From a virus, in the IMG/VR virus record IMGVR_UViG_3300022752_000019, positions 1-64,000 of that record: DNA of 64,000 nt. The stretch is one strand, 5' to 3'. A program made the position numbers and the translations under genes. Below, in pieces: positions 12,332 to 64,000 of the stretch. The notes under the pieces are model-generated. The model saw nothing but the letters and a program-made list of their open reading frames with translations. It was not told the origin of the DNA and did not search any database. How positions within the stretch are numbered: position 1 is the stretch's first letter; each line of letters opens with the position of its first letter.

Positions 12332-12334
12332 TGT

Positions 12335-12369: not shown

Positions 12370-12372
12370 AGC

Positions 12373-12645: not shown

Positions 12646-12674
12646 GGAGGTCTCCGTGGGAGGTTGGTGGTCTC

Positions 12675-12699: not shown

Positions 12700-12724
12700 G
12701 GTTCTATGTGGGAGGGAAGATAGC

Positions 12725-28159: not shown

Positions 28160-28714
28160 TCAGAACGCGAATGCCGGCCCGAAGGACATGCGTCCCATAG
28201 TGGGCCTTTCTCCGCGAACCAGATTTGAGCGTCCCATCGGAGCAGCTCCGGAAGATCTCGCGGGTAGAAGCTCGCTCGCAGAACGCGTATCAACTACAGC
28301 AGGTCTCCGGGTTGGCAAGGCTGCCCTGACCTGAGCGTTACCGCGGCCAATTACGTTTCTAAGAACGTCCTCGTTTTGGAGCGCACGGAGGCTACCCGTG
28401 TTCAGCATGTTTTGTGCCGACCGCACGCCAGCAACCGAGGCCCTCCTGCCCAGGCCAGTCAGACCGACACGGTTTAGCGCGCCACCCAGGGCAGTCAGCC
28501 CACGGGCCATGAGGCCGCCTTCCTTGTCAAGCCCAGCCGCGTATGCCTCGCGGAGAGCTTGATGGATCTCCTCTTCCGATCCGTATTCCGCCACCTTGAC
28601 AAGGTACTCGTAGACCTCAACTTCATCAGCCGAAGCAGACTTGATGAGATCCTCGTCCGATACCCAGAGGGGATGAGCAGAAAGGACGTAGTTGTAGGCT
28701 GCGATCTTATCCAT
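28160..28714 (-). CDS. Virion-type protein with M-D-K-x-A-A-Y start, 184 aa
   Basis: Begins MDKIAAYNYVLSAHPLW, matching the starts at 21120 and 58763. An I-K-S-A-S tag lies at about residue 25. A Gly/Leu-rich segment (ALGGALNRVGLTGLGRRA) and a disordered Arg/Ser/Pro tail follow. Likely an internal head or injected protein. Confidence 0.65.
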   Translation of the reverse strand: MDKIAAYNYVLSAHPLWVSDEDLIKSASADEVEVYEYLVKVAEYGSEEEIHQALREAYAAGLDKEGGLMARGLTALGGALNRVGLTGLGRRASVAGVRSAQNMLNTGSLRALQNEDVLRNVIGRGNAQVRAALPTRRPAVVDTRSASELLPARSSGAAPMGRSNLVRGERPTMGRMSFGPAFAF

Positions 28715-29928: not shown

Positions 29929-32900
29929 TCAGGAGACGATGGTGACGCGGATCTTGTTGCACGGGTAAGCGGGCTGCACCGTCACCTCAATCAGCACTGT
30001 ATCAGGAGCAGAGCTGTCCTGAAGCACGCTGTTGAGGGCGGCCCCGTTCACGACACCGGCCTGTACGGAGCGGGCAAGGAAGCCCTCGTTCGCCATGACC
30101 AGCTGATCGATGAACCCGGGGTTGATCACGAACCGGCCGATGAAGACGCGGTTCGTGGCCCGAAGACCCTTGGCAAGGAAGTCGATCGACTTCGTGATGC
30201 TGAGCTCGCGCGCTTCGATCGACGTGCTCTTGGTCGACCTCTGATGGCGGGATGCGATTCGACCACCCTGGTTGATCAGGATGTACCGGCCACCATCAGC
30301 AATGGTGTCCATCTGGTTCTCGCTGAAGGTGTCATCTGTCCCGTACACCTTCGAGAAGCCAGTCATCGAGACCTGGGTGAAGGGCTGCTGCGGGCTCTGT
30401 TCCGCGATCATCGCGGCGATCGCGGCGCAGGTGTAGTAGCCCGGGACCGGAGTCACGATGCCGTCGATGCTGGTGTCCACGTTGCCGCTGAACACGAGGA
30501 AGGTGCGGCGGCTGTTGTACGCCTCACCCTGCGCAGCAGCGGTCGCTGCAACGGCAGCCTTGTCCGTCAGCGTCGTACCCGGGATCAGAAGCTTGCTGCC
30601 GCGCTGCTTGAGCACGTACTGCATGCCAGAGAGGTTCTCGTCATCCGTCCAGTTGAGGGCGGGCGTGTCGTAGAAGCCGTCTGTGTTCTCATCCGAGGCG
30701 AACGTGCTGCGGAGCGTGAGCGCCGTTCCGTTCACTGCGGAGACGGAGAACTTGTAGACGTTCGTCTCCCCGAGGACGGAGACGACGAGCTCCAGGAACA
30801 CGTTGTCGCTGAAGTCGAGTTCCGCAGGGTTCAGGCCGAGCGCAGCAAGGCCCTCGATCGGCGTAGAGCCGAGGGTGATGCTGTTTGTCGAGCCGTTGAC
30901 CTCGGCATCGTTGCCCGCCAGGATGGAGGTATCCATCCTACGAGTGGGCACGCCCTGCCACAGCAGCGCGATGCGCTCGCCCCGCTGCTCCGGAGCAGAC
31001 ATGCTGTCCGCATGGAGCGAGTAGAGCTGCTGAACGAAGGGGTCATCCGTCATCGGAGCGATGGCGTAGACATCCTTGCTCTCGAGGAACGTCAGCGCGG
31101 ACAGGTGCGCTGTGGTCGTGCCCATCGGCGCGGCGTCGTTGACTGCGCTCACACCCAGCGCCGAGACCGACTGAGACGGCGCGTTCTGGAGCATGAGGAA
31201 GCAGGCCAGAGCCAGCGGGTTCTCGGTGGAGATGGGGCCGATCGCAGCATCCATCGTGTCTACATCTTGGAAGGTCAGCAGCGCAGGGTTTCGCGCCGCC
31301 GCCGTCACGTCGAGCCGGAGGCCGACATACTCGATGTAGACCCTTGCCCCGCTTGCCGACAGGTCCAGAGGAGCGCCGGTGCTGCGGTTGCGGAGCGCAT
31401 GCGGGCTGATGTGCGCGATGCCCTCGCCGTCCACGTAGAAGCTGGGATTGGGGCGGCCCTCGCCAGTTGCAGATGACGAACCGAACAGCACATCGTACGC
31501 GCTGCTGTCCTCGTCGACATTGACGGAGGAGGCTGCGCCCGCAAACGCGGAAGTGAGGACGAGCGCGAGGTCGTCCTCGCTGGCGACGTCTACCGCACCG
31601 CCGACGGTCTCGTTGATCGCATCAACGGCCTCTCGCAGAGAGTTCGAAGTGAAGTCCACTTCGTAAACGTGCGGGTTGCTGTCGAGGGTGAACTCGATGC
31701 GAGTGCCCTTGAGGATGTCGTCGCCAGCCCCAGTACCGGTTCCACTGCCGCCTTCAAATGCAACACGGGTGACGGCGGGAACCGAGACCGTGAGGTCATT
31801 TGTGTCGCCGCCCCGAACTAGCGTAAACACTAAGTTTCCGCCGTCGATTGTCATGTCGATCAGGTGGGTCAGCTGCGAGTCGTTCTTGAAGTAGATCTTG
31901 TACACACCGCCGACCGCTGCCGATCCTGCAAGAGTTTCAGCAAAGTCTGCAAGGCTTGCTTCTGCTCCCGGGACTGTCGCGGTCCATGAGGGCAGCGAAA
32001 CATCGTCATGAGTCACGGCAAAGGTGAATGTCACCGAAGTTGCCAACGCGTGGTCTACGACAGTCGTAGCTACGGAGGCACGCTCCGCGTACTCTACGTC
32101 GACGCCAGTTGCACTGTCACCGGCTGCAAGGCCGAAGATGGTGTGGACGGCGGCCGACCCACCCGGAAGGATGGTCACGCTTTGGTCCGCGCCGGTCTTG
32201 ACGGTCTTGATCAGTAGGATCTTGTCTGACCCGACCGTGCCGAGCGAGAACACGAGACCTGCGAGATCTGCGTTGTCGTTCAGGCTGTCGCGTGCTTCTG
32301 TAAGATCTGCCCCCACAGCGGCAGTGAACGTATGCGTCACGTCATCCAGTGTGACACCGTCCTCTACAATCCGGAAGGAGATGGTTCCGCCAGTGAGCGC
32401 GGGAATTGTTGCCGAGAACTCTGCGCCCATCAGCTGTGCCGGAAGGGCCGCAATCGCGTCAGTGTCGTCTCCGACAAGCTCCGCTGCAACTGGAGCCGGA
32501 GTCACAGAGCCCCACACCAGGTTGTTTGCGATGAAGTAGGCAAACACGGGAGCGAAGGGAACACCGGCAGAAGGCGTGCTGACCTCGATGGTCGAGTAGA
32601 CGGACGAGGTGATGTTTCCGTCCGCATCGAAAGTCGAGCGCGCAGAGTCAAGCACTCCCAGCTTGAAGCGGGACGACTCGACAGCGGTAACCACCGCGCC
32701 GCCGACCTGAGTTCCGTCTGCCCAGAACTCATCGCCCGGAGTGGTTGCAGTTGCCGCCTTCAGCGGAATGGTGGCACCGGAGCCGGTGAATACCGGAGCA
32801 GATGCCGTTCCGGCAAACAGTCTCCCATCCTTACCGCGAAGGAAGAAAGGACCGGAAGGAAGATCCCCGACATGGAACTCAACCCAGGGAGTAGTCAAGT

Positions 32901-33657
32901 CTCCGTCCAGGTCATCCTGACCTCGGAATCCCGAGCCTTCTACGCGGTAGGTTGTGGCAGAGGCAAGTGGCGACCCCTCCCCTGCGGTGAGTGCGGGGAG
33001 GGCACTTCCGGTAATGAACAGGGACGACGACGCCCCGTAGGCTCGGCTCTGAACAACGACACCTGCGTCACTGCTCAGATCTTCATCGAAATCGGAAAGG
33101 TCACTAAACGCAGTAGCGGTGATTCCAGGAACCGAGCTAAGCGCGAGGGCGACGGCTTCTGCGCTCATCGTTCCGCTGAAAGGGATCACAGTCGGGTTGG
33201 CGTTGCTCGGCGAGTTCGCCTTGATGTTGAGCAGAACCGTAGTGCTGCCGAAGACAAAGGATCCTCCACCAGAGTCGAAGACAACCAGCGCGCTGCGCGC
33301 GTCGTTGAGCGCCGCAAGGAAGGCGGAGCCCGTGCTGCCGTGGCTTCCGCGCGGAAGCGTGGTCATCGCACCCGCGTAGAGGAGGCGCGCGCCAACCTGC
33401 GCTTCGTCGACGTTGATCTCGTCGATGTTGTCACGCGGGTCGGGGAACTCTGCCTGAGTGATCGCCAGCGCAGCTTGCGTGTACCGCTGCGTCGTGTACT
33501 CGGCGTCGCTGTTCACGCCGCCAGAGTTGTCCAGGGCCCGGACGATCTGGTAGCACGGAGCCACGACAACCGGGTTGAGGGTCGGAGTCGCAACCGCGGC
33601 AGGAGTCTCACGAAGCTCCTGAACAACGATCACACCGGGGCGATTTTCACTTGCCAT
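29929..33657 (-). CDS. Tail sheath protein, unusually large (1242 aa)
   Basis: The N-terminus (R-P-G-V-I-V-V-Q-E, then V-V-V-A-P-C-Y-Q-I-V) and the C-terminal third match contractile tail sheaths. The C-terminal third includes a Y-N-S-R-R-T-F-L-V-F-S-G strand, P-G-Y-Y-T-C-A-A-I-A-A-M-I and F-I-G-R-F-V-I-N-P. The middle, about residues 130-800, is a chain of beta-rich inserted domains. T4 gp18 is about 660 residues, so this sheath has roughly double mass and probably a thick outer surface. Confirms a myovirus tail. Confidence 0.88.
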   Translation of the reverse strand: MASENRPGVIVVQELRETPAAVATPTLNPVVVAPCYQIVRALDNSGGVNSDAEYTTQRYTQAALAITQAEFPDPRDNIDEINVDEAQVGARLLYAGAMTTLPRGSHGSTGSAFLAALNDARSALVVFDSGGGSFVFGSTTVLLNIKANSPSNANPTVIPFSGTMSAEAVALALSSVPGITATAFSDLSDFDEDLSSDAGVVVQSRAYGASSSLFITGSALPALTAGEGSPLASATTYRVEGSGFRGQDDLDGDLTTPWVEFHVGDLPSGPFFLRGKDGRLFAGTASAPVFTGSGATIPLKAATATTPGDEFWADGTQVGGAVVTAVESSRFKLGVLDSARSTFDADGNITSSVYSTIEVSTPSAGVPFAPVFAYFIANNLVWGSVTPAPVAAELVGDDTDAIAALPAQLMGAEFSATIPALTGGTISFRIVEDGVTLDDVTHTFTAAVGADLTEARDSLNDNADLAGLVFSLGTVGSDKILLIKTVKTGADQSVTILPGGSAAVHTIFGLAAGDSATGVDVEYAERASVATTVVDHALATSVTFTFAVTHDDVSLPSWTATVPGAEASLADFAETLAGSAAVGGVYKIYFKNDSQLTHLIDMTIDGGNLVFTLVRGGDTNDLTVSVPAVTRVAFEGGSGTGTGAGDDILKGTRIEFTLDSNPHVYEVDFTSNSLREAVDAINETVGGAVDVASEDDLALVLTSAFAGAASSVNVDEDSSAYDVLFGSSSATGEGRPNPSFYVDGEGIAHISPHALRNRSTGAPLDLSASGARVYIEYVGLRLDVTAAARNPALLTFQDVDTMDAAIGPISTENPLALACFLMLQNAPSQSVSALGVSAVNDAAPMGTTTAHLSALTFLESKDVYAIAPMTDDPFVQQLYSLHADSMSAPEQRGERIALLWQGVPTRRMDTSILAGNDAEVNGSTNSITLGSTPIEGLAALGLNPAELDFSDNVFLELVVSVLGETNVYKFSVSAVNGTALTLRSTFASDENTDGFYDTPALNWTDDENLSGMQYVLKQRGSKLLIPGTTLTDKAAVAATAAAQGEAYNSRRTFLVFSGNVDTSIDGIVTPVPGYYTCAAIAAMIAEQSPQQPFTQVSMTGFSKVYGTDDTFSENQMDTIADGGRYILINQGGRIASRHQRSTKSTSIEARELSITKSIDFLAKGLRATNRVFIGRFVINPGFIDQLVMANEGFLARSVQAGVVNGAALNSVLQDSSAPDTVLIEVTVQPAYPCNKIRVTIVS

Positions 33658-48140: not shown

Positions 48141-48170
48141 CTGACGCCCTGGCTTCGGCCAGGGCGTCAG
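48141..48170. terminator. Hairpin between convergent genes
   Basis: A 13-bp perfect stem CTGACGCCCTGGC with a TTCG loop separates the plus gene (47674) from the minus terminase. It has little T-run on either side but is very stable. Confidence 0.8.
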
Positions 48171-51100
48171 TCCGTATCCAACTCTTTGTCAATTTTAGCA
48201 CTTGGAACGATGATGTCCGGCCTCGGATTGTCAATCATCGATACGACAAAGCAAAGCAGCAGCGCGTGAAAGCTGTCGTCTGTCGTATTGGGAGACTTCT
48301 TGTACTCCGTCATGCGCGTCCTCTCGTTGTACTCGGAGAAGATCGCAAGCATGTCAGAGCCAAAAGGACTACCAAACTCAGACCACTTCGGGAACCGGAA
48401 CACAGAGCGACGCTTGATGGCGTTGAACACCGCGCTCATGACTTCGGAACGATGAATCAAGAAGCGGCCCTTCGCCGAATCGAACTGCATGATCGTCTTT
48501 GGGGTCGAGTACTGATACCGGACGACTCGCTGTGATCCGTACAGCCTCAGCAGCTCATCGTTGGGCCAGTATCCTCCGCCGTAGTCCACTCCGACTCGAG
48601 TGACCTCAAAGGCCGCAAGAAGCTTCTTGATCTTCTCGATTTGCTGCTTCGGCTCTGCTTCTGCGCCAGAGAATCGGTGCGCAAAGATGATGCGAAAGAA
48701 CCCTTCGATGTACGCGCCGATCATCACGATCGTGTACGAGTTGTTTGAGTCCTGTCCCCAGTCAATCCCAGCGTACACCTGCTTGCCGCGAATTTTGGGC
48801 ATGATCTCTTTTAGCTTCTCTGCCTTAAACGAGAAGTCGGGATCACAGCAGGACTGGACATCGCCCTGAGTCAGCGGGCGCTGCCCGGAGTCAAAGCTTG
48901 CTCCCAGCACCTCGTTGTAGAACTTGGCTCGAGGGTATTGGTTGTACTTCGTGAGGATGTTGCTCCACTCAAGCCAGGGCACCATCAACTGCGGAATGCG
49001 GAAGCCCTCGAACACATCGAACTTTGGGTTCGGGTTTCCCGTGCGCACCCACTGGGCCATTGGATGATCTGGCCGAATGACCTCTCCGCACTTGTCGCAA
49101 GAGAGGCCACGGATGCCAATGTTTCGCTCCCCCAGGATGTTCCAGTGCCACGACCCGGGGTTGTTGGGCAGCCCGTGTCTCTCACACGGAACTGCCCACT
49201 CGTTCTGCGTAGAGTACGCGTCCCAGTAGACTTGGATCGAGTTGTCCAGGCTCTTTGGAGTGCCGCTATAGATGAACCACTTGAACGGGCTGTGAGAAGC
49301 TGCCTCCTCGATGACGGGGATGTTGTCCAGCAGCAAGTCCTGAAACTCGTCCATGCAGATCAGGTCTGCCGAGAGTCCGCGGCACCTGTCTGCATTGAGG
49401 AACGCATACCGAAGTTTGATCTCACTTCGGTTGATCGCCTTCTTCTCAAAGACGTTGTCCGTCAGATGCTGCGGGAACCAAGTCTTGAGGTCAGGGCAAG
49501 TCTCCAGCGGCTCCTTGAGGCGCGTCTTGGAAAACTCCTTGGTCTGTTGACTGGACGGAGAGACGTAGAGGATGCGGAAGTGCGGAATCAGACAAGCGTA
49601 AGAGAGCGTCTTGTTTCCCAGCGTGGTGCTGTTGTGCGTAAAGAGTGCTCCTGCAACAAAGTTGTGGTGTCCACGCACTGTCAGGTCAAAGCACCACTGC
49701 TCTCCTACATTCACAACCTCCTCAACTTCGTCCCAATAAATATCGGAGCGAAGATGAGCGCGAAGTAGGGCTACTTTCTCTGCGTCATACCGAACATCTC
49801 CCTCAAAAAAGACGACGAATTCTTCGAGCTTCTTCCGGGTAAGCGTGTACTTCGCCCGTGGGAGGCGCTCGATTCCGGCGGCACGCAAGGTTCTGTCGCC
49901 CTTCGTGGGCCGCACCGAGTTGTAGATGTCTCGGACAATGTGAGTCACCTCCTCCGGATACGTGTCACGATTGGAGTTGGTGTCCCAGTTGGCGAGGTCC
50001 TGTCGCTCAATCTTCCCCAGAGCGCCGATCTCACGCACAAACGCCCGGACCCCATCCTGAGTCTCCACACGAAGAATAAATGCGACCTTTTCTTCTCCGC
50101 GCCTCTTATAGATCGCGGGCCAGTTCTTTCGAATGGAAGACGGAATTCCGAACTTCCACAGCAGGGCCTGGATCTGTCGAATCATGGTGTGCGACATCGA
50201 GCAGTACTCGATGGACCACTTTGAGGTCGTGTCTTGCTTTACATGCCCATCAGTCGCCCATAGTCGATTCAAAAACAGCGCAGTCTGGGGGCGCGAGAGA
50301 TGAAAGACCCATTTCGGGATGAACTTGGTGTAGGAGGTCTTCCCCAGGAGGTCGTCTTCTTCAAACCAGTCGTAGAGCTTCTGGGCGCGGTACTTCGGAA
50401 GCCGGAGAGCTACTGCCTCTGTTCCCGGTTTGTCCGAAACACCGTAGGTCATCCCCTCCAGTGCCAACTCATTGATAAAGTCGGACAGTACTACATCTGT
50501 CGCGTTCGTGAACGACATTCCAGATGAAGAACAATGGCCGTCTCCGAGCATGAACGCCGTGAGCTTGACCCGAGAGTCTGGCTGCGCAGAATCGGCGAAC
50601 TCCCCCGCACGCCGCACGACTGCGATCCGGTCTCCTACGCGTACATTTCCCGCATCACGCCAACCACCCCATCTGCGGATGGGGTGGGTCGTTGCAAGCG
50701 TGGCCTCATGTCCTTGCCGGGTACGAACACGAACACAGGGCTTGCTGTATCGAGCCGACTTCCAGGTCACCTCAGACGAAGTGGCTAAGTGCCCACTCCC
50801 GAGCTCTACTCCCGGCGCCACCTCGTCAGTGTTGAGACAAACAAGGCGGTCCCCGGGCTGGACGTCCTTGATCGGAACGTGTTGGCCGGTCGAAAGGAGG
50901 ACAAGCTCGTCCTCGTGAACCGTTTTTTCCACCTGTCTTCCGCACATGAGAAGTACGCGCGGAGACTGAATGTCGTAGATCTGTCGAAGGTAACGGCGCT
51001 CTGCGAATGAGAAGTTCTCCAACTGCCGTGTATGTGGGTTGGGCATCATCATCGTCGTCTCGATGAACTGAGACGGCGTCAGAGGGATCTGCGCGTTGCG

Positions 51101-51187
51101 CAGATCCTGCTCGGAGATCTTTACTGTGTCTCCTCGTGGAGCGGCGTAGTCCCATGGACCTGCCAGGAGGGAGTTAGAAAAACTCAC
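48167..51187 (-). CDS. Terminase large subunit interrupted by an intein
   Basis: Packaging motor: ATPase plus nuclease. The 1006-residue product contains an intein (residues 89-519). Without it the terminase is 575 residues. The extein Walker A reads G-R-Q-V-E-K then S-T-T after splicing. Walker B is in D-L-I-C-M-D-E-F-Q-D (after the intein). The RNase-H-like nuclease starts at Y-A-G-I-D-W-G-Q-D. Cys pairs C-E-R-H and C-D-K-C-G lie between. The start is GTG 51187 with CGGAG 6 nt upstream. Spelled without splicing, the ATPase would be dead, because the intein splits the P-loop. Confidence 0.93.
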   Translation of the reverse strand: MSFSNSLLAGPWDYAAPRGDTVKISEQDLRNAQIPLTPSQFIETTMMMPNPHTRQLENFSFAERRYLRQIYDIQSPRVLLMCGRQVEKTVHEDELVLLSTGQHVPIKDVQPGDRLVCLNTDEVAPGVELGSGHLATSSEVTWKSARYSKPCVRVRTRQGHEATLATTHPIRRWGGWRDAGNVRVGDRIAVVRRAGEFADSAQPDSRVKLTAFMLGDGHCSSSGMSFTNATDVVLSDFINELALEGMTYGVSDKPGTEAVALRLPKYRAQKLYDWFEEDDLLGKTSYTKFIPKWVFHLSRPQTALFLNRLWATDGHVKQDTTSKWSIEYCSMSHTMIRQIQALLWKFGIPSSIRKNWPAIYKRRGEEKVAFILRVETQDGVRAFVREIGALGKIERQDLANWDTNSNRDTYPEEVTHIVRDIYNSVRPTKGDRTLRAAGIERLPRAKYTLTRKKLEEFVVFFEGDVRYDAEKVALLRAHLRSDIYWDEVEEVVNVGEQWCFDLTVRGHHNFVAGALFTHNSTTLGNKTLSYACLIPHFRILYVSPSSQQTKEFSKTRLKEPLETCPDLKTWFPQHLTDNVFEKKAINRSEIKLRYAFLNADRCRGLSADLICMDEFQDLLLDNIPVIEEAASHSPFKWFIYSGTPKSLDNSIQVYWDAYSTQNEWAVPCERHGLPNNPGSWHWNILGERNIGIRGLSCDKCGEVIRPDHPMAQWVRTGNPNPKFDVFEGFRIPQLMVPWLEWSNILTKYNQYPRAKFYNEVLGASFDSGQRPLTQGDVQSCCDPDFSFKAEKLKEIMPKIRGKQVYAGIDWGQDSNNSYTIVMIGAYIEGFFRIIFAHRFSGAEAEPKQQIEKIKKLLAAFEVTRVGVDYGGGYWPNDELLRLYGSQRVVRYQYSTPKTIMQFDSAKGRFLIHRSEVMSAVFNAIKRRSVFRFPKWSEFGSPFGSDMLAIFSEYNERTRMTEYKKSPNTTDDSFHALLLCFVVSMIDNPRPDIIVPSAKIDKELDTD
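49631..50923 (-). other. Intein with LAGLIDADG-type endonuclease, Thr at position 1
   Basis: A 431-residue intein lies inside the terminase P-loop. The N-splice block reads T-V-H-E-D-E-L-V-L-L ... I-K-D-V-Q-P-G-D-R-L-V. Block B is T-L-A-T-T-H-P-I, block F is W-C-F-D-L-T-V-R-G-H-H-N-F-V-A-G and block G is T-H-N, followed by Ser+1. Two dodecapeptide-like motifs (A-F-M-L-G-D-G-H and L-W-A-T-D-G-H) mark a LAGLIDADG homing endonuclease. Position 1 is Thr (ACG), not the usual Cys or Ser. The +1 residue is Ser. Confidence 0.88.
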
Positions 51188-52429: not shown

Positions 52430-53007
52430 TAGCCAATGTCCGCGTAGAGCCGAAAGCGCGCGTCGGTGTGCGCGTGATGGAGTACGAAGCTTGCCCAGTT
52501 TGCCGAAACGGGGAACTCGAATGTGTACTTCTCACCGACAGTGAGCAGGCTGCTCTTGAAGACGTACTCGGCGACGTCAGCGTTGTACTTTGACGACGAA
52601 TACTCCGGAGCAGTCAGCTGCCGGAACCAGTCTGACGCAGTGGCGAGATCTGGATCCCCGAGGTTTGAAAGACGTAGGTTGAGATGGAGGTCGGCAGACG
52701 ACGCCGCCAGTACCTCAATGCCGAAGATGATCTTTGAGGCATTGGCAACGTTGATCTTGTCTGAGTAGTGCCCGGCTGCAATGGCAGCGGCGTAGTTCGC
52801 CGTACTGGCTGGGCTGCCTCCAGTAACCGCTCCGTAGATTGGAGTAGTGCCTCGATCTTTGTGCGCATCGTTGCAGAAGATCGAAAGCCAGCCCGAGCTA
52901 TTGCCCGTGTAGTCAGGTCCGCCCACAAGGCCGGGAATGTTCTCTTCTTCCAAGAACGCAATCATCGCGTTCTCATCGCGGACAGTCTTAGAACGCAGCG
53001 CAGGCAT
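52429..53007 (-). CDS. Beta-rich virion-type protein, 192 aa
   Basis: A jelly-roll-like strand pattern with an N-terminal helix and P-G-L-V-G-G-P-D-Y-T-G-N-S-S-G-W-L. The C-terminus has F-V-L-H-H-A-H-T-D-A-R-F. No family is recognised. Probably an appendage or head protein by position. Confidence 0.62.
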   Translation of the reverse strand: MPALRSKTVRDENAMIAFLEEENIPGLVGGPDYTGNSSGWLSIFCNDAHKDRGTTPIYGAVTGGSPASTANYAAAIAAGHYSDKINVANASKIIFGIEVLAASSADLHLNLRLSNLGDPDLATASDWFRQLTAPEYSSSKYNADVAEYVFKSSLLTVGEKYTFEFPVSANWASFVLHHAHTDARFRLYADIG

Positions 53008-53867
53008 TACTTCTTCTCCGTGAGCAGGATCTCTTCGCGCGAGCGATTTGAGATCGAACCAGTGGGGGAGAGATCTAACAAGCTTGGGATCTTCTTGGTG
53101 CCGTGAAGCACCTTGAACTTCTCGAACTTCTTAAGCGTCTCTTGAAGTGCAGTATCTCCCGCCTGCACCCGCTCGTCAATGCGCGCAAGACCACGCGCAA
53201 GGTTGCCGAGCATTTCCACCTTCTTGTCGGAGAGCGGAAGGCTCCGAGTCTCGAGGAAGGTGTGGTACAGCTCGGCGCGGACCTCCATCATGATCTTCTT
53301 GCCGTCGAGCTCTCGCCGAATGCCCATCCGGTAGGACGCGGCCTCGGGGCCGGCACGGACAGCAAGTTGGTACGCGTCGCGAAGAGTGAATGTCCTCTTC
53401 GTCGAGTCTCCGCGGAGGTACTCAACCCAGTCGCCGACACCCATGATGTCGGAGTTCCAGAAGTAGTGCTTGAACTCGGCGATGGCGAGTTCGGACACCT
53501 CGAAGCCAATCTCCTTTATCTGGGACGATGCTTCGTGGAATGGAACTCCTGCCATCACCAGAGTCTCGACCTTCTCTCTCAGCGGGGCAGAGAGGAGGAT
53601 CTTCTCGCGCATCTCAATGGTGTGCTTGTCTGGGAACACCAGTGAGTAGAGCTTGTTCTTGCGCAGCCATGACGATGTCGGGCGATGCTTTGAGTCCCAC
53701 GGACGAAAATCCGCAGGAGGCTTCAGAGATTCACGGCACCGCTTGAAGTCCTCTTCGGAGATCTCCGAGAGTCCGTGCATCTCCAGGTTCAGGTTGACAT
53801 CGTCATACGACAACGCCGCCCCGATTACGAGGAGATACTTGACGAAGAATTCAGCGGGATGGGCCAT
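53007..53867 (-). CDS. Helical protein, 286 aa
   Basis: Starts MAHPAEFFVKYLLVIG and is mostly helical, with a long C-terminal coiled coil (GDTALQETLKKFEKFKVLHG). No family is recognised. It has 1-nt spacing to its neighbours, so it is in the same operon as the polymerase. Confidence 0.65.
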   Translation of the reverse strand: MAHPAEFFVKYLLVIGAALSYDDVNLNLEMHGLSEISEEDFKRCRESLKPPADFRPWDSKHRPTSSWLRKNKLYSLVFPDKHTIEMREKILLSAPLREKVETLVMAGVPFHEASSQIKEIGFEVSELAIAEFKHYFWNSDIMGVGDWVEYLRGDSTKRTFTLRDAYQLAVRAGPEAASYRMGIRRELDGKKIMMEVRAELYHTFLETRSLPLSDKKVEMLGNLARGLARIDERVQAGDTALQETLKKFEKFKVLHGTKKIPSLLDLSPTGSISNRSREEILLTEKK

Positions 53868-53868
53868 C

Positions 53869-55374
53869 TCAGACCTGGTACGTCTTGAGACTCTTTAGCC
53901 CATTGATCACGTCCTCGAGAGCGAACATCGCCCGAACAGCCGCAGTCTTTGGGATGCTCTGGAGACCGATCTGTGCGGCAAGCACTACGCTCGCAAGCTT
54001 GGTGGACGCCTCCTCAAGCTGAGGCAGGAACTCGATGAACGTCTCAACGTTCTCGGGGTTGAGGAAGTTGAGAGCCAGGACAGCATCAACCGAGGCAGTG
54101 TCTACCAGGGCAGATGCCTTCTTGTCGAACGTGATCGCGGAGATCTCCTTCAAAAGGTTCACCCTCTGAGGGAACTGTGTCTCCAACAGCTCGACTGCCG
54201 CTTCCTTTAGAGCATCCTCGTACACCTCTTCCCGAGAAGAGAGAGGACGTAGCCCGAAGAGGCGAATGGGCTGTCCGGTGGACGCTGCCTTCTCGAGACA
54301 CGCGGCGCTGAGGTTCTGAGGCATGCCGGCAGCGGCAAGCCAGAACACCCCGTCTACCCAGTCATGCTCGCCCGATCCAATCTTCTCAAAGACCGGACCG
54401 CTGAGGCGACATCCTCCTTCCCAGGCACGAATCTCCACCATCGTCTCATAGGCGTTCGCCTGTGCCGCCTTCATCAGCTCGTTACCAGACGCAAGCTGAA
54501 TGGGGTTCTCGAGCGGCATGAACTTGTAGTCTGGAGGAATCGCGATGTCCGTCGTCGAGGACGCGGTTGGGCGTAGCAGCCCAGGAGAGGGAATGATGCG
54601 GATGTCGTTCCCATTCATGTCCTGGGCGGCGAAATAGCCATTCCCCTCTACAGTTACCTTGGTCACGATGTTGTAGGGCACTGTGCAGATGATCGCCTTG
54701 CCATTGGTCTTGACGAATACGCCAAGACCGCGGACATCCGGGTTCTCGGGAATCGGCAGATTGTGGCTAACGCCGATGAGAGATCCGGAGATACCCGGCT
54801 GTGCCGAGTAAGCGGACCCGTTTGTGAACAGTGCAATCCCGGTGGGCCCGCCCTGAATGGGATCGAACAGATTGGGAATGACGTGCCCGATGACCTGCTT
54901 TCCCGTTTCCGCGTTGGTGACCTTGTAGAGTCCGAAGGCCGTAACGGGAGCCATCTGTTCAACCAGAGGGTCCGGCTCAGCCTGAACGCCGGTTACAGTC
55001 GCAGCCCCCTGCTGATCCGCTGCCTGGAGCATCTCAGGAGGAAGCACCTGCTGCGCCTGTTGCGCGGAGACCTGTGTCTCCTGTGGCGCCATTCCGGCAG
55101 GAGCTGCGGATACCTTGATGACGTAACCGTAGCCCTGGGGCCGTACCTGAACAACATCGGTACCCGGGGTAAACCGAGTGGACGCAATCTTCGCCAGGGC
55201 GCCGTGCTCAATAATCGGCTTCGATGTTACTCGACGCAGGCATTCCATAACAGAAGCGTTTTTCTCAATCATTCTACGAACGTCAGCATCGGCGAAGGTA
55301 TCGTCAAAGCGAGCAAAATCGCTCCGGTTGATTGTACCGGCAATCGCGGAGCAGAGGCTGGCAGGCGTTTTCAT
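53869..55374 (-). CDS. Putative internal virion protein with K-x-A-S tags, 501 aa
   Basis: At least six tags: E-K-N-A-S, A-K-I-A-S, E-K-A-A-S, D-K-K-A-S, T-K-L-A-S, P-K-T-A-A. The middle (about residues 140-290) is a beta-rich domain with V-I-G-H-V-I-P-N-L-F-D-P. The C-terminal part is helical. Likely a structural or injected protein that is processed during head maturation. No family is recognised. Confidence 0.62.
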   Translation of the reverse strand: MKTPASLCSAIAGTINRSDFARFDDTFADADVRRMIEKNASVMECLRRVTSKPIIEHGALAKIASTRFTPGTDVVQVRPQGYGYVIKVSAAPAGMAPQETQVSAQQAQQVLPPEMLQAADQQGAATVTGVQAEPDPLVEQMAPVTAFGLYKVTNAETGKQVIGHVIPNLFDPIQGGPTGIALFTNGSAYSAQPGISGSLIGVSHNLPIPENPDVRGLGVFVKTNGKAIICTVPYNIVTKVTVEGNGYFAAQDMNGNDIRIIPSPGLLRPTASSTTDIAIPPDYKFMPLENPIQLASGNELMKAAQANAYETMVEIRAWEGGCRLSGPVFEKIGSGEHDWVDGVFWLAAAGMPQNLSAACLEKAASTGQPIRLFGLRPLSSREEVYEDALKEAAVELLETQFPQRVNLLKEISAITFDKKASALVDTASVDAVLALNFLNPENVETFIEFLPQLEEASTKLASVVLAAQIGLQSIPKTAAVRAMFALEDVINGLKSLKTYQV

Positions 55375-57655: not shown

Positions 57656-58762
57656 TCAATCGGCTTCGAGCACGGTTGACAGGAACGGACTTCGAGTAGC
57701 GAGAGACGCTACGATATCACTAAGAAGCGCGTCTGTCGCAGGAGTAGCAGGAATGCCGAGAGACGCCAGGGCACCCTTAATCTCGGTGAGCGAGTCTTGT
57801 AGCTTCCCGAGAAAGTCTGTGCCCAGTAGGACAGGCTGAGATTCCGAACCAGAATTACTTGTGATTCGGATTTTCCCATCCAGTGTTACTCGCGCGTCTC
57901 CCTTACGTGCGATTTCGCACACAAACGATCGACTTGCGCTCTCGTCTGCGCTCTCATCTGGACACACGCTGAATCGGTAGACCACTGCCGCCGTATCGAA
58001 AGACGCCGGCTTCTTCATCGTGACGACCAGTGGAGTGAGGACTCCGAGTTCTCCCTCCACCTGTAGTGTGACTGGAGTATCGACCAGTGCCGGGACTGCG
58101 ATCGGCCCGTCGAGCTCAAGACGACTTAGTGCTCCGCTTGCGGGGTCGCGGATTGATCCAGCCTCAGAGCTGACTGTCCATCCTCCTGAGTTGACGTACT
58201 CCCTGGCTCTGAAAGTATACGCACACGTCAGGTCTCCGAACGCATCTTCCTCTCTGCCATAGGACTTCCACTCCATTGAGCCGCCGAACGTCTCGACTTT
58301 CCAATTCTCTGCAATTGTTAGGATCTGGTTGATGAATGGATTTGTGACGATGCGGGATAGAGCGGTCCCGCGGAACTCAGTCACACCACCTCTACGCGCG
58401 ATGATCCCATTCCCATCCCGGGTCAGGATCGCCATGTCTCCTGGGGAGAGGTAGGGTCTTCCTGAATGATAGGAGCCGGGCTGCCCGTCCTGCGTGGCAG
58501 CGGAGGGCTGAGGTGCTGACAACAGCAAGAACGCCCCAGCACCGTCCGAAGGCGCGCAGACGAAGCACAGAGCGCCCACCTCGGGCATGTAGTGAATCCC
58601 CTCCCCCGACGGAGTCGAGTAGAGAGAGGGGATGATGACGTTGGTAAACTCCCTCTTTACCGTGTCGCAGTAGACCACACAGGTCCAGCGTGCCGAATCG
58701 ACGAGAACAACTCGGCCCTGAAGGACTGTGGGTTGCGATGGCCGTAGAGGCTTACTCGTCAT
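57656..58762 (-). CDS. Baseplate spike protein (gp5/VgrG/gpV-like)
   Basis: A 368-residue protein. Residues about 12-85 look like the OB-fold of baseplate spike proteins: G-R-V-V-L-V-D-S-A-R, T-N-V-I-I-P-S-L-Y, Y-M-P-E-V-G-A-L-C-F-V-C. Then S-P-G-D-M-A-I-L-T-R-D-G-N-G-I-I-A-R-R-G-G, typical of the strands that follow. The C-terminal part is beta-rich with a helix end. It would form the central membrane-piercing tip of the contractile tail. Confidence 0.65.
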   Translation of the reverse strand: MTSKPLRPSQPTVLQGRVVLVDSARWTCVVYCDTVKREFTNVIIPSLYSTPSGEGIHYMPEVGALCFVCAPSDGAGAFLLLSAPQPSAATQDGQPGSYHSGRPYLSPGDMAILTRDGNGIIARRGGVTEFRGTALSRIVTNPFINQILTIAENWKVETFGGSMEWKSYGREEDAFGDLTCAYTFRAREYVNSGGWTVSSEAGSIRDPASGALSRLELDGPIAVPALVDTPVTLQVEGELGVLTPLVVTMKKPASFDTAAVVYRFSVCPDESADESASRSFVCEIARKGDARVTLDGKIRITSNSGSESQPVLLGTDFLGKLQDSLTEIKGALASLGIPATPATDALLSDIVASLATRSPFLSTVLEAD

Positions 58763-59182
58763 TCAGCGGTCCGACGAAGGGCGGCCCAGCAGATATCCAG
58801 TTCCAAGAGCCCCAGCACCCAGCGCCCCAGCTCCGAGAGTTCCGGCTCCAATAAGAGCCGCCGTGTCTCTATTGGCAGCAACTCCATCTGATGCGCGGGT
58901 CAGCGCCTTGCCGAGTGTTTCACGCACTCCTCCGGCAGTAGCCCCTCCCGATAGCATTCTGCCCAGACCACCGGCTGCATTTCCGACTGCGTCGCCGACC
59001 GCAGCTAAGCCGCGTCCTGTCGCCGATAGAACAGCCTCTTTCTGCATGTGTGCGTCGAATGCTCGAAGATAAGCTTCCGGCATCTGCCCGTCGCAAGTGC
59101 CAAAATTTCTGATGATGAACTCTGCACGCTTTTCTTGTTCCACGAGTTGAAGAGCAACCCGATACGCTGCAATCTTGTTCAC
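58763..59182 (-). CDS. Glycine-zipper protein with M-N-K-x-A-A-Y start, 139 aa
   Basis: Begins MNKIAAYRVALQLVEQ, sharing its start with proteins at 21120 and 28160. An M-Q-K-E-A tag lies at about residue 48. Two Gly/Ala segments follow (AVGDAVGNAAGGLGRML and LIGAGTLGAGALGAGALGTG). 9 nt downstream of the polymerase gene and abutting the spike gene. Confidence 0.68.
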   Translation of the reverse strand: MNKIAAYRVALQLVEQEKRAEFIIRNFGTCDGQMPEAYLRAFDAHMQKEAVLSATGRGLAAVGDAVGNAAGGLGRMLSGGATAGGVRETLGKALTRASDGVAANRDTAALIGAGTLGAGALGAGALGTGYLLGRPSSDR

Positions 59183-59191: not shown

Positions 59192-62100
59192 TCAGAAAAA
59201 GGAAAGAAAACCAGAGGTTTTTCTCTCGGAGGGAGTTGTTGGGGCAGGCTTTCCAGGCAAAGTTGCCTTCGGCACGTTCACCATTCTATCAGGAACGCCC
59301 GGGGCGTTCGGAAGCTTAACAGCGCCCGGGGGCTCTAATCCGAACTCGGCTCCGTGCGCGATTCCCGCGATCGGATGGCCGTGGATGTCAGACTTCCAGT
59401 TTTGAGCAGCACCTTCGACGTAGGTCTCCTCGAGGCGCTGGAAGTTCAGGCGAGCCATCCAGTCCTCCTGACCGGCCAGCGGCATCTTGTTCATCGCCTT
59501 GAGCTGTGGCGTGTGCTTGATCTCGCGCTTGTTCATGGAGCGAAGCTCCTTGTTTTTGCGCTCAATCTCCGACATGGGAACAAGTTGCCCACGCAAGTAT
59601 GCGTGATCGTCGCCAGGGTCATCTACCCGAGTAAGGTCCGTCATTGCGCGAATGACGGTCTCGATGTTCCTACGACGCTCGTTGCCGGTCGTCTCGACGT
59701 ATAGCTCGTTGAGGCTGTCCGCGATGTGCGTGCGAACCGCGCCCATGTTCTTCGTGATGGCAAGGATGTCGTGCGGGTTCTTTCTCCCCTCAGAGAGGGC
59801 CTCTGCCTTGTCGACTTCAACTCCAACTCGGATCGAGGGGAGAAGCGGACTTGTGAACGGAACGACGTGCTGTTTCCCGTCAATGGTGACAATCTTTCCG
59901 CCGAGCGCGTCGTTTTCGATCTTCTCGACCTTGCCCGCAACGGTAGATAGGACTGCTGCTCCCTTGAGCTTCTTGGGAACCTTGAACAAGTCCTCGGCAG
60001 CGGTGAAGTAGTCGCCCACGCCGCTTGTCCCTCCGACACCTCCGGTGTGGAAGGTGCGCATCTGCATCTGCGTGATGGGCTCGCCGAGTGCGTGGCCTGC
60101 GATGATGCCAACGTTTGTGCCGATTGGGTATAGGGAGCCGCGCTCACTGAGTCCGTAGCAAGTGGCGCAGATCCCCTTGACCTCGTTGCAGTGGAGGGGA
60201 GAGCGAACAAGGATCTTCTTCGGCCCGTCGTTCTTGATCTTGGAACGGATCTGCGGAGTGATGAGCGTTCCCTTGGGAATGGCCTCCCCTCCCTTGAGCG
60301 GAACTTCTCCGGCAAGGAAGCGCCCCTCGATGTCTGCCTCCATCGAAGAAAGCAGCGCACCGCGAATCGTTCCGCAGTCCTTCGACTTGATCGTGTTGTC
60401 GATGACGGTGTTGATGAGCTCCTTGGTCAGCGCACCAGGCTTGGCCGTTGCCGAGGCGCGATCGATGGTTCCTTTCCGAGCACCATGCAGCGACGCATAG
60501 TACTGCGAGACTGGAAGTCCCTCTCCAAAGGACTTGGTGATGGCAAAAGGCACGGTCTGATTCATCGGATCCTGCACCAGCATGGGCCCCATGACCATCT
60601 GACCGAACTGGTTCCAGTCGCCCTTTGCGCCAGACCGTGCCCAGTCCCACATGCGGTTGTCGAGGCGAGAGTTGTACCTGGCCTCCCCAACCTGCTTCAG
60701 CTCCTTCTGCGCCTTTTGGTACAGCGCGATGATCTTCTCATCCTTCTGCTGCTTGGAGCCCGAACCCTTGAGGATGGAGTCCTCTTCCTTCTTGTACTTG
60801 ACGAGAACCTCGTCCCGAAGCTTGAAACCGTCGTGGAAGTCGTTGATAGATACGCTGGACCCATTCTTGAAGGCAAGGTTGAACCCAATCGTCTTCCACT
60901 GGTCGATCATCTTTGAGAACTCTTCTGGTTCCGCGCGAGCTACACGCGTGGCAAACCGCTTCATGGAGCCTTTCGCCATACGGAAGCTCGGATCGTAGAG
61001 GAGATCCTCATCGCCCTTGAACTGCTGCGGAAGGGTCGCATTAATCATCAACCGACCAGCCGTAGTGGGTTTCTTTAGCCCCTTGACTTTGATGACGTTG
61101 TACGACTTAATCTTGCCAGCCTTCACAGCCTGGATCGCCTGTTCTTCCGTAAATTCTCCCGAAACCGGCTTGCCCCATTCCGTCGCCTGGAAGATGCCGA
61201 GCACCGAGTCCTGGCTCGGAGTCACCATGAGACCTCCACTCGTCGGAGAGAAGAGGTTCTTCGAGGGCATCATGTTCTTGGCTTCTTGTACTGCGGCATC
61301 CGTGATGGGCACGTAGAGGGCCATCGTGTCACCGTCGAAGTCCGCGTTGAAGCCTCCAGTCACGAGGGGATGGATCTTGATGGACTTGCCCTCAATCAGC
61401 CGAGGACGGAAAGCCAAGATTGAGAACAGGTGAAGCGCGGGGTCACGCTTCATCATCGCAGGACGATCGCGGACAACTCTCTCGAGTGCCTCATTTGCGG
61501 CAGGATGGTTCTTCTTGATCATCATACGCGCCTCGCCCGGAGACGTGGCCCGCCCCATGTTGCGCCACAGCTCCTTGATGACGAAGGGCTTGTACATCTC
61601 CATCGCCATCTCTCGAGGGACGCCGACCTCATCAAGCGGCATTTCGGGGTCGGGCGTGATGACCGAACGACCCGAGAGATCTTGACGCTTCCCGAGAACA
61701 CCTGACTGGAAGAACGACTGCTTCGGCTGCCGAAGGCCCGTCATCTTGTCCATGAGGGAAGGGACCTGCTTGCCTTCCATCTGCATGCCGGTGACACGCA
61801 GCGCCTTGGTCGTCTCATAGATCTGTGCCTGGACCTTCTGAATCTCTCCAATCGGCATCTTCTCTTTTTCTGCCTGCTCGAGCTGCTTCACCATCTGCCC
61901 AATGATGGCGTACATCTTGTTCGCAGGGTCGATGATCTGTGTGCCATCGAAGCCAATGCTTACGCGGCGCAGAGAGGGGGGAAGAACAGGCAGGACCTTG
62001 TTGGTGTACGCATCAACCGGCTTGATACCAAGTTCTTTCAGCGCCCGAAGGTAGCGCACCCTCTTGTACGCGACGTTCAGCTCGTTCTCGCTTGCCTCAG

Positions 62101-64000
62101 CAAGCTCTTTCTCGGATGCCTTTAGTTCCTTGTTAACGTCGATGTCCCTTAGCTTCTCCTCGATGATGGCAAAGCCGGACTTCCGTCCAACCGCGCCCGA
62201 CTCGGTCAACAGCTTCTGGAACTCAGGCTTGGGCATCTTGAGGAGTAGGCGAATCGGCTCCTCAAACATGGGGTTGGGAATGCGCACACCCAACTCCATG
62301 TGTGTCCACTTGGTTCCCTCAAGGCCGCCAGTCTTGGCCTTATCGAATAGGCCGCCACGTTCTTCTTTGGTCAAAGAGCCCTTGGCTGCGAGTGTCTTCT
62401 CGGGGAATGCAAGGGCTCCCGAACTCTGGGCAATCGTCTGCTTGTCCGTCATCGGCATGAGCGAGTACTCGCGGCCCTTACGGTCCGTGTAGACGCCCAT
62501 CGCGCGAAGGTAGTGAGTGAACTGCTCCATTGAGCGCGGAACTTTCGGAGGAGGCGGACGCTCTCCACGCATGATGCGTGTCCACACGTCCTCCGCCTGT
62601 TCGCGGTCGGACTTGTAAGTCTGCATCTCACGAAGGTTCTGCTTGGCCCCGTGGGCAAGCAGGGTGTAGGTGTCCAGGCCGCCAATGCGCTGACCGCCCT
62701 CTCCGAGGCCCGATCCCTGTGATGCCTCGCCGGTGGTCTTGTACGCATAGCCGAAGCCGCCAGCACGAGCAGAGATCTTTTTCTCGGCCTGATGGTCCAG
62801 CTTCAGGATGTACTGATGGCCCGTGAGAACCTGTCCCAGGCTCTCGCCTGTCTCCGGATCAAAAAGCTCATCGGTATCGGAGATCTTGTGCTTCTTGAGT
62901 TCCTCCTTGACGAGAGCTGCGTAGTCAGTGCCCGGCTCAAAGTTGTTGATCACGAAAGGCTTGCCGGTCTTGAGGGCAACCTTGCTGACCGCAGTCTCGA
63001 GCACCTGTCCAGGGTTCATACGCGAAGGAATGCCCGCTGGAGACAGCAGGACGTGAACTGGATTACCGTCCTTGTCCTTCGGCATCTTGTCATCGGGCAG
63101 AATCTTAGTAACAATGCCCTTGTTTCCGTGACGACCAGAGAGCTTGTCGCCGACCTCCATGGTCTGCTCGGTGCGAATGAACACGGCGATCTTGCGGCCA
63201 TTGTTCGACACGCGAGCTACGGTTCCGCCGTACTCGTGATCCCAGCGAACGCCTGCATCGGTGTAGTCCTGAATGGCTCCCTTTAGCCGGCGACGGATGT
63301 CCTCGGTATCCTTGGACATGACCTGCTTCTGGAGCTTGGCGATCAGTACGTCACCAGGCTCAACTTTCTGCCCTACGCGGATCACTCCATCGTCGTCGAG
63401 CTTCTGAAGGATCTCTGGGGTCGCCTTGACGGGACCAGCGTACTGACGCCACATCTTCTTGTTGACGACAACGTTCGGGTGCATCTCGGCTTCTGCCGAG
63501 TGCAGATGGCTGGAGATCAACTTCTGCGCGGCTGACTCCGAGATGACGACGCCGTCCTCGAAGTTGTACCCACGGTACGGGATGTACGCGACACGCAGAT
63601 TTGTACCAAGCGCCAGCTTGCCGCCCTTGGTGAAGTTGGAGTCCGCGAGAAGCTGCCCTCTACGAACTTTGTCTCCTACTGCGACCTTGGGCTCCGAGTG
63701 GAGCATGTGCTTCGCGCCGTTGAGCGGGAAGTTCTCATACAGCGCGTGGGTGTACCGCTTCTTATCGTCGCCCTCGACAACAATGCGCTGCTTAGAGACC
63801 TCGATGACTTTACCGTCCGCGTCCGAGGTGATTGCCGCGGTCGCGCCTACGATGTCTTCGTAGGACGCTCCACCGGAAGCCTGGGTCTGAACAAGGGGGG
63901 CCTCTCTTTCGCGAAGTCCTACAGCTTGCTCCTGGTGCTTGGCCGCCATCATTGCGCGGTTGCCGTTGTCGTTTTGGACGAACGGGATCAGGTTCGCGCT
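59192..64000 (-). CDS. Fused beta/beta-prime RNA polymerase (5' end outside window)
   Basis: The visible 1602 residues begin inside beta (S-A-N-L-I-P-F-V-Q-N-D-N-G-N-R-A), so the ATG at 63952 is not the true start. Beta part: Y-R-G-Y-N-F-E-D-G-V-V-I-S-E, G-D-K-L-S-G-R-H-G-N-K-G, L-S-P-A-G-I-P-S-R-M-N, G-G-Q-R-I-G-G-L-D. Beta-prime follows without a stop from about 62480: G-G-L-F-D ... W-T-H-M-E-L, the rudder/lid region, then the catalytic NADFDGD at 61328-61348. Next are a C-x-x-C zinc knuckle (I-C-A-T-C-Y-G) and the trigger loop M-Q-M-R-T-F-H-T-G-G. The N-terminal zinc ribbon of beta-prime is absent. Likely makes phage transcripts, perhaps from the virion. Confidence 0.95.
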   Translation of the reverse strand, partial: SANLIPFVQNDNGNRAMMAAKHQEQAVGLREREAPLVQTQASGGASYEDIVGATAAITSDADGKVIEVSKQRIVVEGDDKKRYTHALYENFPLNGAKHMLHSEPKVAVGDKVRRGQLLADSNFTKGGKLALGTNLRVAYIPYRGYNFEDGVVISESAAQKLISSHLHSAEAEMHPNVVVNKKMWRQYAGPVKATPEILQKLDDDGVIRVGQKVEPGDVLIAKLQKQVMSKDTEDIRRRLKGAIQDYTDAGVRWDHEYGGTVARVSNNGRKIAVFIRTEQTMEVGDKLSGRHGNKGIVTKILPDDKMPKDKDGNPVHVLLSPAGIPSRMNPGQVLETAVSKVALKTGKPFVINNFEPGTDYAALVKEELKKHKISDTDELFDPETGESLGQVLTGHQYILKLDHQAEKKISARAGGFGYAYKTTGEASQGSGLGEGGQRIGGLDTYTLLAHGAKQNLREMQTYKSDREQAEDVWTRIMRGERPPPPKVPRSMEQFTHYLRAMGVYTDRKGREYSLMPMTDKQTIAQSSGALAFPEKTLAAKGSLTKEERGGLFDKAKTGGLEGTKWTHMELGVRIPNPMFEEPIRLLLKMPKPEFQKLLTESGAVGRKSGFAIIEEKLRDIDVNKELKASEKELAEASENELNVAYKRVRYLRALKELGIKPVDAYTNKVLPVLPPSLRRVSIGFDGTQIIDPANKMYAIIGQMVKQLEQAEKEKMPIGEIQKVQAQIYETTKALRVTGMQMEGKQVPSLMDKMTGLRQPKQSFFQSGVLGKRQDLSGRSVITPDPEMPLDEVGVPREMAMEMYKPFVIKELWRNMGRATSPGEARMMIKKNHPAANEALERVVRDRPAMMKRDPALHLFSILAFRPRLIEGKSIKIHPLVTGGFNADFDGDTMALYVPITDAAVQEAKNMMPSKNLFSPTSGGLMVTPSQDSVLGIFQATEWGKPVSGEFTEEQAIQAVKAGKIKSYNVIKVKGLKKPTTAGRLMINATLPQQFKGDEDLLYDPSFRMAKGSMKRFATRVARAEPEEFSKMIDQWKTIGFNLAFKNGSSVSINDFHDGFKLRDEVLVKYKKEEDSILKGSGSKQQKDEKIIALYQKAQKELKQVGEARYNSRLDNRMWDWARSGAKGDWNQFGQMVMGPMLVQDPMNQTVPFAITKSFGEGLPVSQYYASLHGARKGTIDRASATAKPGALTKELINTVIDNTIKSKDCGTIRGALLSSMEADIEGRFLAGEVPLKGGEAIPKGTLITPQIRSKIKNDGPKKILVRSPLHCNEVKGICATCYGLSERGSLYPIGTNVGIIAGHALGEPITQMQMRTFHTGGVGGTSGVGDYFTAAEDLFKVPKKLKGAAVLSTVAGKVEKIENDALGGKIVTIDGKQHVVPFTSPLLPSIRVGVEVDKAEALSEGRKNPHDILAITKNMGAVRTHIADSLNELYVETTGNERRRNIETVIRAMTDLTRVDDPGDDHAYLRGQLVPMSEIERKNKELRSMNKREIKHTPQLKAMNKMPLAGQEDWMARLNFQRLEETYVEGAAQNWKSDIHGHPIAGIAHGAEFGLEPPGAVKLPNAPGVPDRMVNVPKATLPGKPAPTTPSERKTSGFLSFF

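Follow-up and report, generated by a model that had tools for sequence, protein, structure and literature searches.

A single-chain beta-beta' RNA polymerase and a co-inherited sigma70-like factor in a lineage of tailed phages

The phage of IMG/VR record IMGVR_UViG_3300022752_000019 encodes a bacterial-type RNA polymerase (RNAP) in which beta and beta' form one uninterrupted chain with the catalytic motifs and a confidently modeled two-part fold. The record is 164,603 bases (164.6 kb) long, and the stretch analyzed here, referred to as the window, comprises its bases 1-64000. The fusion, motifs, and fold, the loss of a zinc ribbon, a sigma homolog and its co-inheritance, the absence of detectable alpha and omega genes, the portal-RNAP synteny, and a separate phylogeny are shown. 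The likely interpretation is a holoenzyme of two polypeptides, free of alpha and omega, that is packaged and then delivered with the DNA for early transcription; it is inferred that the enzyme is active, needs no host alpha or omega, binds the sigma, is packaged, and is used early.

The reading frame is open over 1602 amino acids within the window and the gene is complete in the parent record, where it runs from an ATG at 65551 to the stop at 59192 (59192..65551, minus strand) and encodes 2119 amino acids with no internal stop; the stop-to-stop frame is 2126 codons. It is the only RNAP match in the whole parent record. Pfam and PHROG both find beta and beta' in this chain, and the Pfam domains follow along it in the order Rpb2_6, Rpb2_7, Rpb1_2, Rpb1_3, and Rpb1_5, with E values down to 4.9e-63 (Table 1). 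An earlier note, made from the sequence alone, had seen only the 3' three quarters of the gene and had described a fused beta-beta' phage polymerase of bacterial type that runs from mid-beta through NADFDGD and the trigger loop without a stop. That description held, and the stop or intein-like break at the junction that would have refuted it does not occur in the complete gene.

Table 1. Features of the RNAP gene and its surroundings; positions above 64000 are those of the parent record, and residues are those of the RNAP chain.
Feature	Position	Strand	Details
RNAP gene, part within the window	59192..64000	-	Residues 518-2119 and stop of the 2119-aa fused beta-beta' chain
beta moiety within the window	62489..64000	-	Residues 518-1021; residues 1-517 at 64001-65551
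Rpb2_6 (hybrid-binding/DPBB domain)	62756-63820	-	Residues 578-932; Pfam
beta GYNFED active-site motif	63554..63571	-	Residues 661-666
beta active-site GDKLSGRHGNKG	63116..63151	-	Residues 801-812; conserved active-site lysines inside
Rpb2_7		-	Residues 952-1021; Pfam
beta/beta' junction linker	62357..62488	-	Residues 1022-1065
beta' moiety	59195..62356	-	Residues 1066-2119
Short loop GGLFD-KAKTGGLEGTK-WTHMEL	62291..62356	-	Residues 1066-1087; replaces the beta' N-terminal zinc ribbon
Rpb1_2			Residues 1287-1428; Pfam
beta' catalytic NADFDGD	61328..61348	-	Residues 1402-1408
Rpb1_3			Residues 1432-1571; Pfam
Split point of the sister lineage	61061..61087	-	Residues 1489-1497; undivided in the window phage
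Bridge helix SGAKGDWNQFGQMVMGPMLVQD	60569..60634	-	Residues 1640-1661; assigned via alignment to bacterial beta'
Rpb1_5			Residues 1678-1844; Pfam
Second beta' zinc site, DCGT ... CNEVKGICATC	60158..60379	-	Retained
Trigger-loop region MQMRTFHTGG	60038..60067	-	Residues 1829-1838
Portal gene, directly upstream of RNAP	66328-68394 (parent record)	RNAP strand	Recurs in 65/80 loci
Small downstream gene of the RNAP operon	58763..59182	-	139 aa; in 12/80 relative loci
Conserved downstream gene	57656..58762	-	368 aa; 65/80 loci, RNAP strand
Conserved operon gene	53869..55374	-	501 aa; no function assigned; 69/80 loci, RNAP strand
Conserved operon gene	53007..53867	-	286 aa; no function assigned; 56/80 loci, RNAP strand
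Terminase large subunit (TerL)	48167..51187	-	PHROG TerL, 7.3e-52; near RNAP in 44/80 loci, RNAP strand
Tail sheath	29929..33657	-	PHROG, 1.1e-10
sigma70-like gene	113885-114718 (parent record)	-	277 aa; Sigma70_r3 (PF04539), 3.4e-10, above cut-off
GTCATAA sites in the window	10096, 15811, 23982, 47642, 51197		21 further sites in the parent record

Both halves of the chain fold as expected of a bacterial-type enzyme. Residues 520-1700 were modeled by AlphaFold with 32 relatives (pLDDT 87.9, pTM 0.75), and in the PDB Foldseek aligned this single model with bacterial beta' chains over about 800 columns (E 5e-41) as well as with bacterial beta chains over about 590 columns (E 4e-39). For a relative, L036, a model of the N-terminal 595 residues (pLDDT 81.8) matched bacterial beta over its entire length with TM scores by query of 0.68-0.75, and beta is therefore complete and not truncated. 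The phage chain thus retains N-terminal beta sequence as well as most of beta'.

The chain departs from its bacterial counterparts at several defined positions. Only eleven residues separate GGLFD from WTHMEL, at a place where bacteria hold a Cys-rich insert, and among 62 diverse relatives no sequence has as many as three Cys in this region. The beta' N-terminal zinc ribbon is thus absent across the phage lineage, as had been proposed for this enzyme in the earlier note. Position 531 of the rifampicin pocket is Thr in all 21 phages checked and Ser in all 28 bacteria, and positions 514, 526, and 568 are also altered in the phage enzymes; on the basis of these pocket residues the phage RNAP is predicted to be resistant to rifampicin. 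The beta' coiled coil, which binds sigma in bacteria, also differs in sequence in the phage.

The gene is not unique to this phage; it belongs to a widespread viral family. A profile scan of viral contigs found relatives encoded in 438 stretches (a family of at least 400), and the ORF is fused in all of the best 80 loci (32-87% identity), a few of which are truncated by contig ends. Other viral contigs hold copies that are 72-87% identical and have the same portal neighbor. Complete fused ORFs number 76, that of the window and 75 from other contigs, and are about 2000-2460 amino acids long. An assembly or frameshift artifact at the junction is ruled out by these 76 ORFs, and Pfam finds no intein at the junction in the window RNAP. 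Interruptions of other kinds were seen among the relatives. L057 (9001-16395) has an intein-like LAGLIDADG/Hom_end insert within beta', L243 has an unexplained insert of about 300 residues in its RNAP gene (8971-14373), the RNAP gene of Vibrio phage D181 (L021, 4503-5453) is split by a homing endonuclease gene, and the RNAP genes of L246 and L293 are broken away from the junction.

A sister architecture, found in L019, L232-L246, Vibrio phage D69, and Salmonella phage Arash, consists of a beta-beta'N chain (as a rule about 1460-1545 amino acids) and a separate beta'C gene (as a rule about 600-640 amino acids). Since the split type is also joined at the same place, the beta-beta' junction is common to both architectures, and it is unbroken in nearly all complete relatives of either one. 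The rpoC1 and rpoC2 genes of cyanobacteria and plastids divide close to the sister-lineage split, just after the catalytic domain, and it is possible that this site is a tolerated domain boundary.

The phage enzymes form a clade of their own outside the cellular reference set. The best 80 matches in cellular genomes have separate rpoB and rpoC genes with about 26-34% identity over long segments, and, outside prophages, no cellular genome was found with a fused gene of more than 50% identity. A beta' tree of 61 rows (LG+C20+F+G4; nucleocytoplasmic-virus/archaeal-type outgroup) unites all phage enzymes in one group with SH-aLRT support of 98. Arash, D69, and L019 adjoin the fused clade, and the YerA41-type and Rhizobium/Va2 enzymes lie further out. 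The phage group is placed beside the bacterial set and away from the outgroup, and support for bacteria as a single group is only 56. In a beta tree without an outgroup, phages and bacteria are separated at 100. The main relations in the two trees match, and both halves of the chain therefore share one history. Both trees have limited cellular sampling and long branches and lack mReC reference, Helicobacter, and Wolbachia sequences. The position outside the cellular set agrees with the deep placement of the mReC phages (PMC7481178), and its exact depth is not claimed. The earlier note had left open a separate lineage or a capture event, to be refuted by placement within one bacterial genus; the separate lineage held, and no such placement was found. 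Some records in the collection labeled as phages (such as L229, L230, and H4-H6) contain ordinary bacterial rpoB-rpoC and look like host sequence; contigs of the L229 and L230 type, filed under phage names, were used as bacterial references only.

The parent record also encodes a sigma70-like protein. Beyond its region 3 match (Table 1), it has a sub-threshold match to region 4 (2.1e-4), and its best PDB matches are SigA chains (6.4e-10), which align with residues 89-269 and span late region 2 through region 4. By these matches it fits the sigma70 family in regions 2 to 4. Of 25 long fused-RNAP records, 20 have a Sigma70_r3 match (above cut-off in 16), and four, all of them possibly incomplete, have no sigma match. 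With the window-phage sigma as query, homologs were found in all nine split-type records, in Vibrio phage D69, and in one further fused-RNAP record. This sigma matches Arash gp10 with an E value of 2.3e-23 and 76 bits, whereas the best-scoring cellular sigma of the PDB reaches 42 bits, and the phage sigmas are likely to be one orthologous family. Among 19 phages, RNAP distances correlate with sigma distances (r = 0.87; 0 of 5000 permutations), and the correlation is 0.83 with close relatives and Arash left out. This is as expected of co-inheritance, and shared phage ancestry alone would give the same result.

No alpha or omega gene accompanies the sigma gene in the searches made. The alpha profile (RNA_pol_L, PF01193) had no match in 26 records including the window phage, with 13 of 14 control genomes positive, and the Rpb6/omega model (PF01192) had none in 20 records, with all 14 controls positive. 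A diverged alpha could escape a profile search. Of the three kinds of gene for which the earlier note had advised a search, sigma is thus present, whereas the searches gave no alpha or omega.

The RNAP gene lies among genes for the virion, as the earlier note had stated: the portal gene is upstream, and TerL and the tail sheath are on the same strand. A PHROG search of the direct neighbors of the window RNAP gave mostly no annotation, and the portal was identified only via relatives and Arash. The upstream gene of the relatives matches PHROG portal families, and the upstream gene family matches the Arash portal gp204 and its D69 homolog (probability 100, E 2.7e-92). The portal-then-RNAP order is common to lineages whose polymerases are about 30% identical, including Arash. 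The presence of TerL indicates that the operon consists of virion and packaging genes, and the tail sheath indicates a contractile-tailed phage (myovirus). An ortholog of the conserved gene at 57656..58762 has a weak match to a baseplate hub/lysozyme PHROG (E 1.2e-4), and the product may be a baseplate hub. TerL itself carries an intein, with an Intein_splicing domain (residues 97-519) and a LAGLIDADG endonuclease domain.

In the proposed mechanism, the single chain, a bacterial-type beta joined to a beta' without the N-terminal zinc ribbon, would be a complete catalytic core, and its assembly is inferred to be independent of an alpha-dimer scaffold and of omega. Promoter specificity would come from the co-inherited sigma70-like protein, giving a holoenzyme of two polypeptides; the binding of core to sigma is inferred, and it may involve a beta' coiled coil altered relative to the bacterial one. 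The RNAP would be produced with the head and packaging genes of the portal-RNAP operon, incorporated into the assembling particle, and carried into the cell along with the DNA, where the holoenzyme would start phage transcription without the host polymerase; activity and early use are likewise inferred. Cells are known to use functional rpoBC fusions, as in Helicobacter. It is possible that the phage core recruits alpha or omega from the host.

The evidence on packaging comes from homologs. In mature particles of Arash, gp206 is the most-detected protein, with 3516 spectra, 128 unique peptides, and 100% coverage, and the spectra of gp216, the sigma gp10, the portal, and the capsid number 1210, 467, 877, and 1333, respectively (PMC10585845). 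Per residue, these counts correspond to 2.3 for gp206, 2.0 for gp216, 2.0 for gp10, 1.5 for the portal, and 4.3 for the capsid. Spectral counts are semiquantitative, and within that limit core and sigma are near equal, as for a complex, and are not below the portal. The Arash list holds 116 proteins including metabolic enzymes, and its authors name carry-over from the lysate as an alternative (PMC10585845). In the distant phage YerA41, RNAP subunits and sigma are particle-associated (PMC7354516). A helicase encoded at 71819-73192 is not detectably the Arash particle helicase gp217, of which only the part within the fetched locus was compared. The suggestion in the earlier note that the RNAP may be packaged thus gains support from Arash and the more distant YerA41, by homology only. 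There are no transcript, protein, or particle data for the window phage, and packaging of its holoenzyme is considered likely by analogy to Arash.

The strongest rival, itself unlikely, is that the fused RNAP is a non-virion enzyme for middle or late phage genes and that its detection in the particles of a relative reflects carry-over of an abundant protein. This reading is put forward by the Arash authors, whose list of particle proteins contains probable non-virion enzymes (PMC10585845); in addition, a gene in the structural operon is probably expressed late. Against this, the raw spectra of gp206 exceed those of every other particle protein, the major capsid protein included; beta-beta'N, beta'C, and sigma are nearly equal per residue and above the portal; RNAP and sigma are associated with particles of YerA41 too (PMC7354516); and late expression beside the portal gene fits packaging. 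Much less likely is cleavage of the chain after translation, by the phage prohead protease or otherwise, which would make the single chain a precursor of separate beta and beta'. T4-like phages do process head proteins, and the sister lineage puts part of beta' in a second gene, so that a single chain is not strictly needed. However, both architectures keep the junction fused, Helicobacter has a working natural rpoBC fusion, and no cleavage site was identified. A host origin in a lineage with fused rpoBC such as that of Helicobacter or Wolbachia, either by recent rpoBC capture or as a stretch of host DNA in the contig, would account for the bacterial-type sequence and the fusion but is all but excluded by the low identity (about 26-34%) of the best cellular matches with their separate rpoB and rpoC, the distinct phage clade in both trees, the 72-87% identical copies beside the same portal neighbor in other viral contigs, and the absence of the zinc ribbon.

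The closest described group is the mReC phages, of which the earlier note was unaware, as it was of the deposited isolates with the same junction, Arash and D69. Weinheimer and Aylward (2020; PMC7481178) described the mReC phages as tailed phages from metagenomes whose bacterial-like beta and beta' align readily; their RNAPs have NADxDGD, are encoded beside hallmark genes, and form a clade apart from cellular and nucleocytoplasmic-virus enzymes (PMC7481178). The window phage meets the mReC criteria for the RNAP itself (beta and beta' by cellular profiles, more than 800 amino acids, NADxDGD, and a stop codon), with Pfam and PHROG in place of COG0085/0086. It also meets those of a separate RNAP clade, given limited sampling and no mReC sequences, and of an RNAP among tailed-phage hallmark genes, here the portal, TerL, and tail sheath. 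The mReC capsid family PF07068 (Gp23-type) has no match in the window-phage record, in which the major capsid protein was not identified, and the TerL matches PHROG 675 and PF05876 rather than the mReC-reported PF03237. PF07068 and PF03237/VOG01069 were reported for those contigs in which such genes occurred and were not an entry criterion. The mReC paper refers to beta and beta' as subunits and applies the term fused to the crAss enzyme alone (PMC7481178), and its text does not mention a fused mReC chain, a sigma partner, a missing zinc ribbon, or virion packaging.

Arash (gp206, gp216, and gp10; PMC10585845) and D69 share with the window phage the beta-beta' junction, the missing zinc ribbon, an orthologous sigma, and the upstream portal, but their beta' is divided after the catalytic domain (1525 and 606 amino acids in Arash) and identity is about 30%. 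Arash gp206 was annotated as beta only, and the fusion thus went unremarked. The YerA41, GN1, and Carin-5 RNAPs, a distant sister in the beta' tree, also combine phage beta and beta' with sigma but have separate genes in the order beta' then beta, about 25-30% identity, and a long branch. The phiKZ- and AR9-type enzymes (PMC7598289, PMC7824862) are likewise phage two-barrel RNAPs without alpha or omega, and one phiKZ/AR9 version is packaged; however, they are far more divergent, spread beta and beta' over four or five genes in two paralogous sets, and lack sigma70 homologs, whereas the window phage has one fused gene and a sigma70-like factor. Reviews of jumbo-phage RNAPs describe split subunits and no sigma (PMC7598289, PMC7824862, PMC13282480). 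YonO, crAss gp66, and P23-45 gp64/gp96 (PMC5467207, PMC10770324) have both barrels in one polypeptide, as the window chain does in Rpb2_6 and Rpb1_2, and P23-45 gp96 is present in the virion. These minimal enzymes can hardly be aligned with beta and beta' (PMC10770324), whereas the window chain has nearly full-length domains and a sigma70-like partner.

The rpoBC genes of Helicobacter and Wolbachia also join beta to beta' in one ORF. These fused enzymes are cellular and are assembled with alpha and omega. They are absent among the closest cellular matches and have no phage context, and the window gene is not nested in a bacterial lineage. Cellular multisubunit RNAPs rely on small scaffold subunits, and their beta and beta' are generally separate; their core comes with alpha and omega genes, neither of which is detectable in the window phage.

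Alignable phage beta and beta' (mReC; PMC7481178) and the component facts for Arash (PMC10585845) were thus already known. What is new is the portal-RNAP synteny shared with Arash, the co-inherited sigma70-like factor in most relatives, and the failure to find alpha and omega. No description of a fused canonical core with its own sigma was found in the open-access literature searched; non-open papers and supplements were outside its scope. The known phage relatives are either split into pieces or minimal, and a nearly canonical core in one chain with its sigma would show to what extent the bacterial holoenzyme is dispensable. A single-chain core would also be a simple system for the study of transcription, and an alignable enzyme makes the origin of phage RNAPs testable. 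Arash, with its particle proteomics, offers a laboratory phage-host pair in which to test packaging and early transcription independent of the host.

A bolder reading, slightly less likely than not, is that a whole lineage of tailed phages packages a two-polypeptide holoenzyme, a single-chain core with its own sigma70, and does without alpha, omega, and host sigma. If so, and since the lineage branches outside the sampled bacterial RNAPs, this would be the simplest natural holoenzyme of bacterial type and an independent experiment in RNAP assembly.

A candidate regulatory element was found in the record. The word GTCATAA occurs 26 times in the parent record, compared with a mean of 7.7 for permuted words, and 18 of these sites have a ribosome-binding site and start codon no more than 60 bases downstream, the best of 420 permutations. 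It usually precedes genes on the strand opposite the structural operon, an A-rich tract often lies about 17-20 bases before it, and it is likely to be a phage promoter element. It is not enriched in the loci of distant relatives (78 seen, 87 expected); a promoter common to the whole family is thus rejected, and the element cannot be tied to the window polymerase. Between portal and RNAP, at about 65572-65720 of the parent record, lies a divergent stretch in which close relatives conserve a ribosome-binding site, an ATG, and a GTCATAA motif on the plus strand; this suggests the presence of one or two very small genes.

The window also encodes a type II topoisomerase large subunit (16073-17962; PHROG 1.8e-153) and a ParB-like protein (21946-22767; PHROG 1.3e-21). 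An N-terminal motif, M-[ND]-K-I-A-A-Y, is shared by the proteins at 28160-28714 and 58763-59182 and recurs in that at 152012-152497 of the parent record, where it is internal; it may be a capsid-targeting or processing signal.
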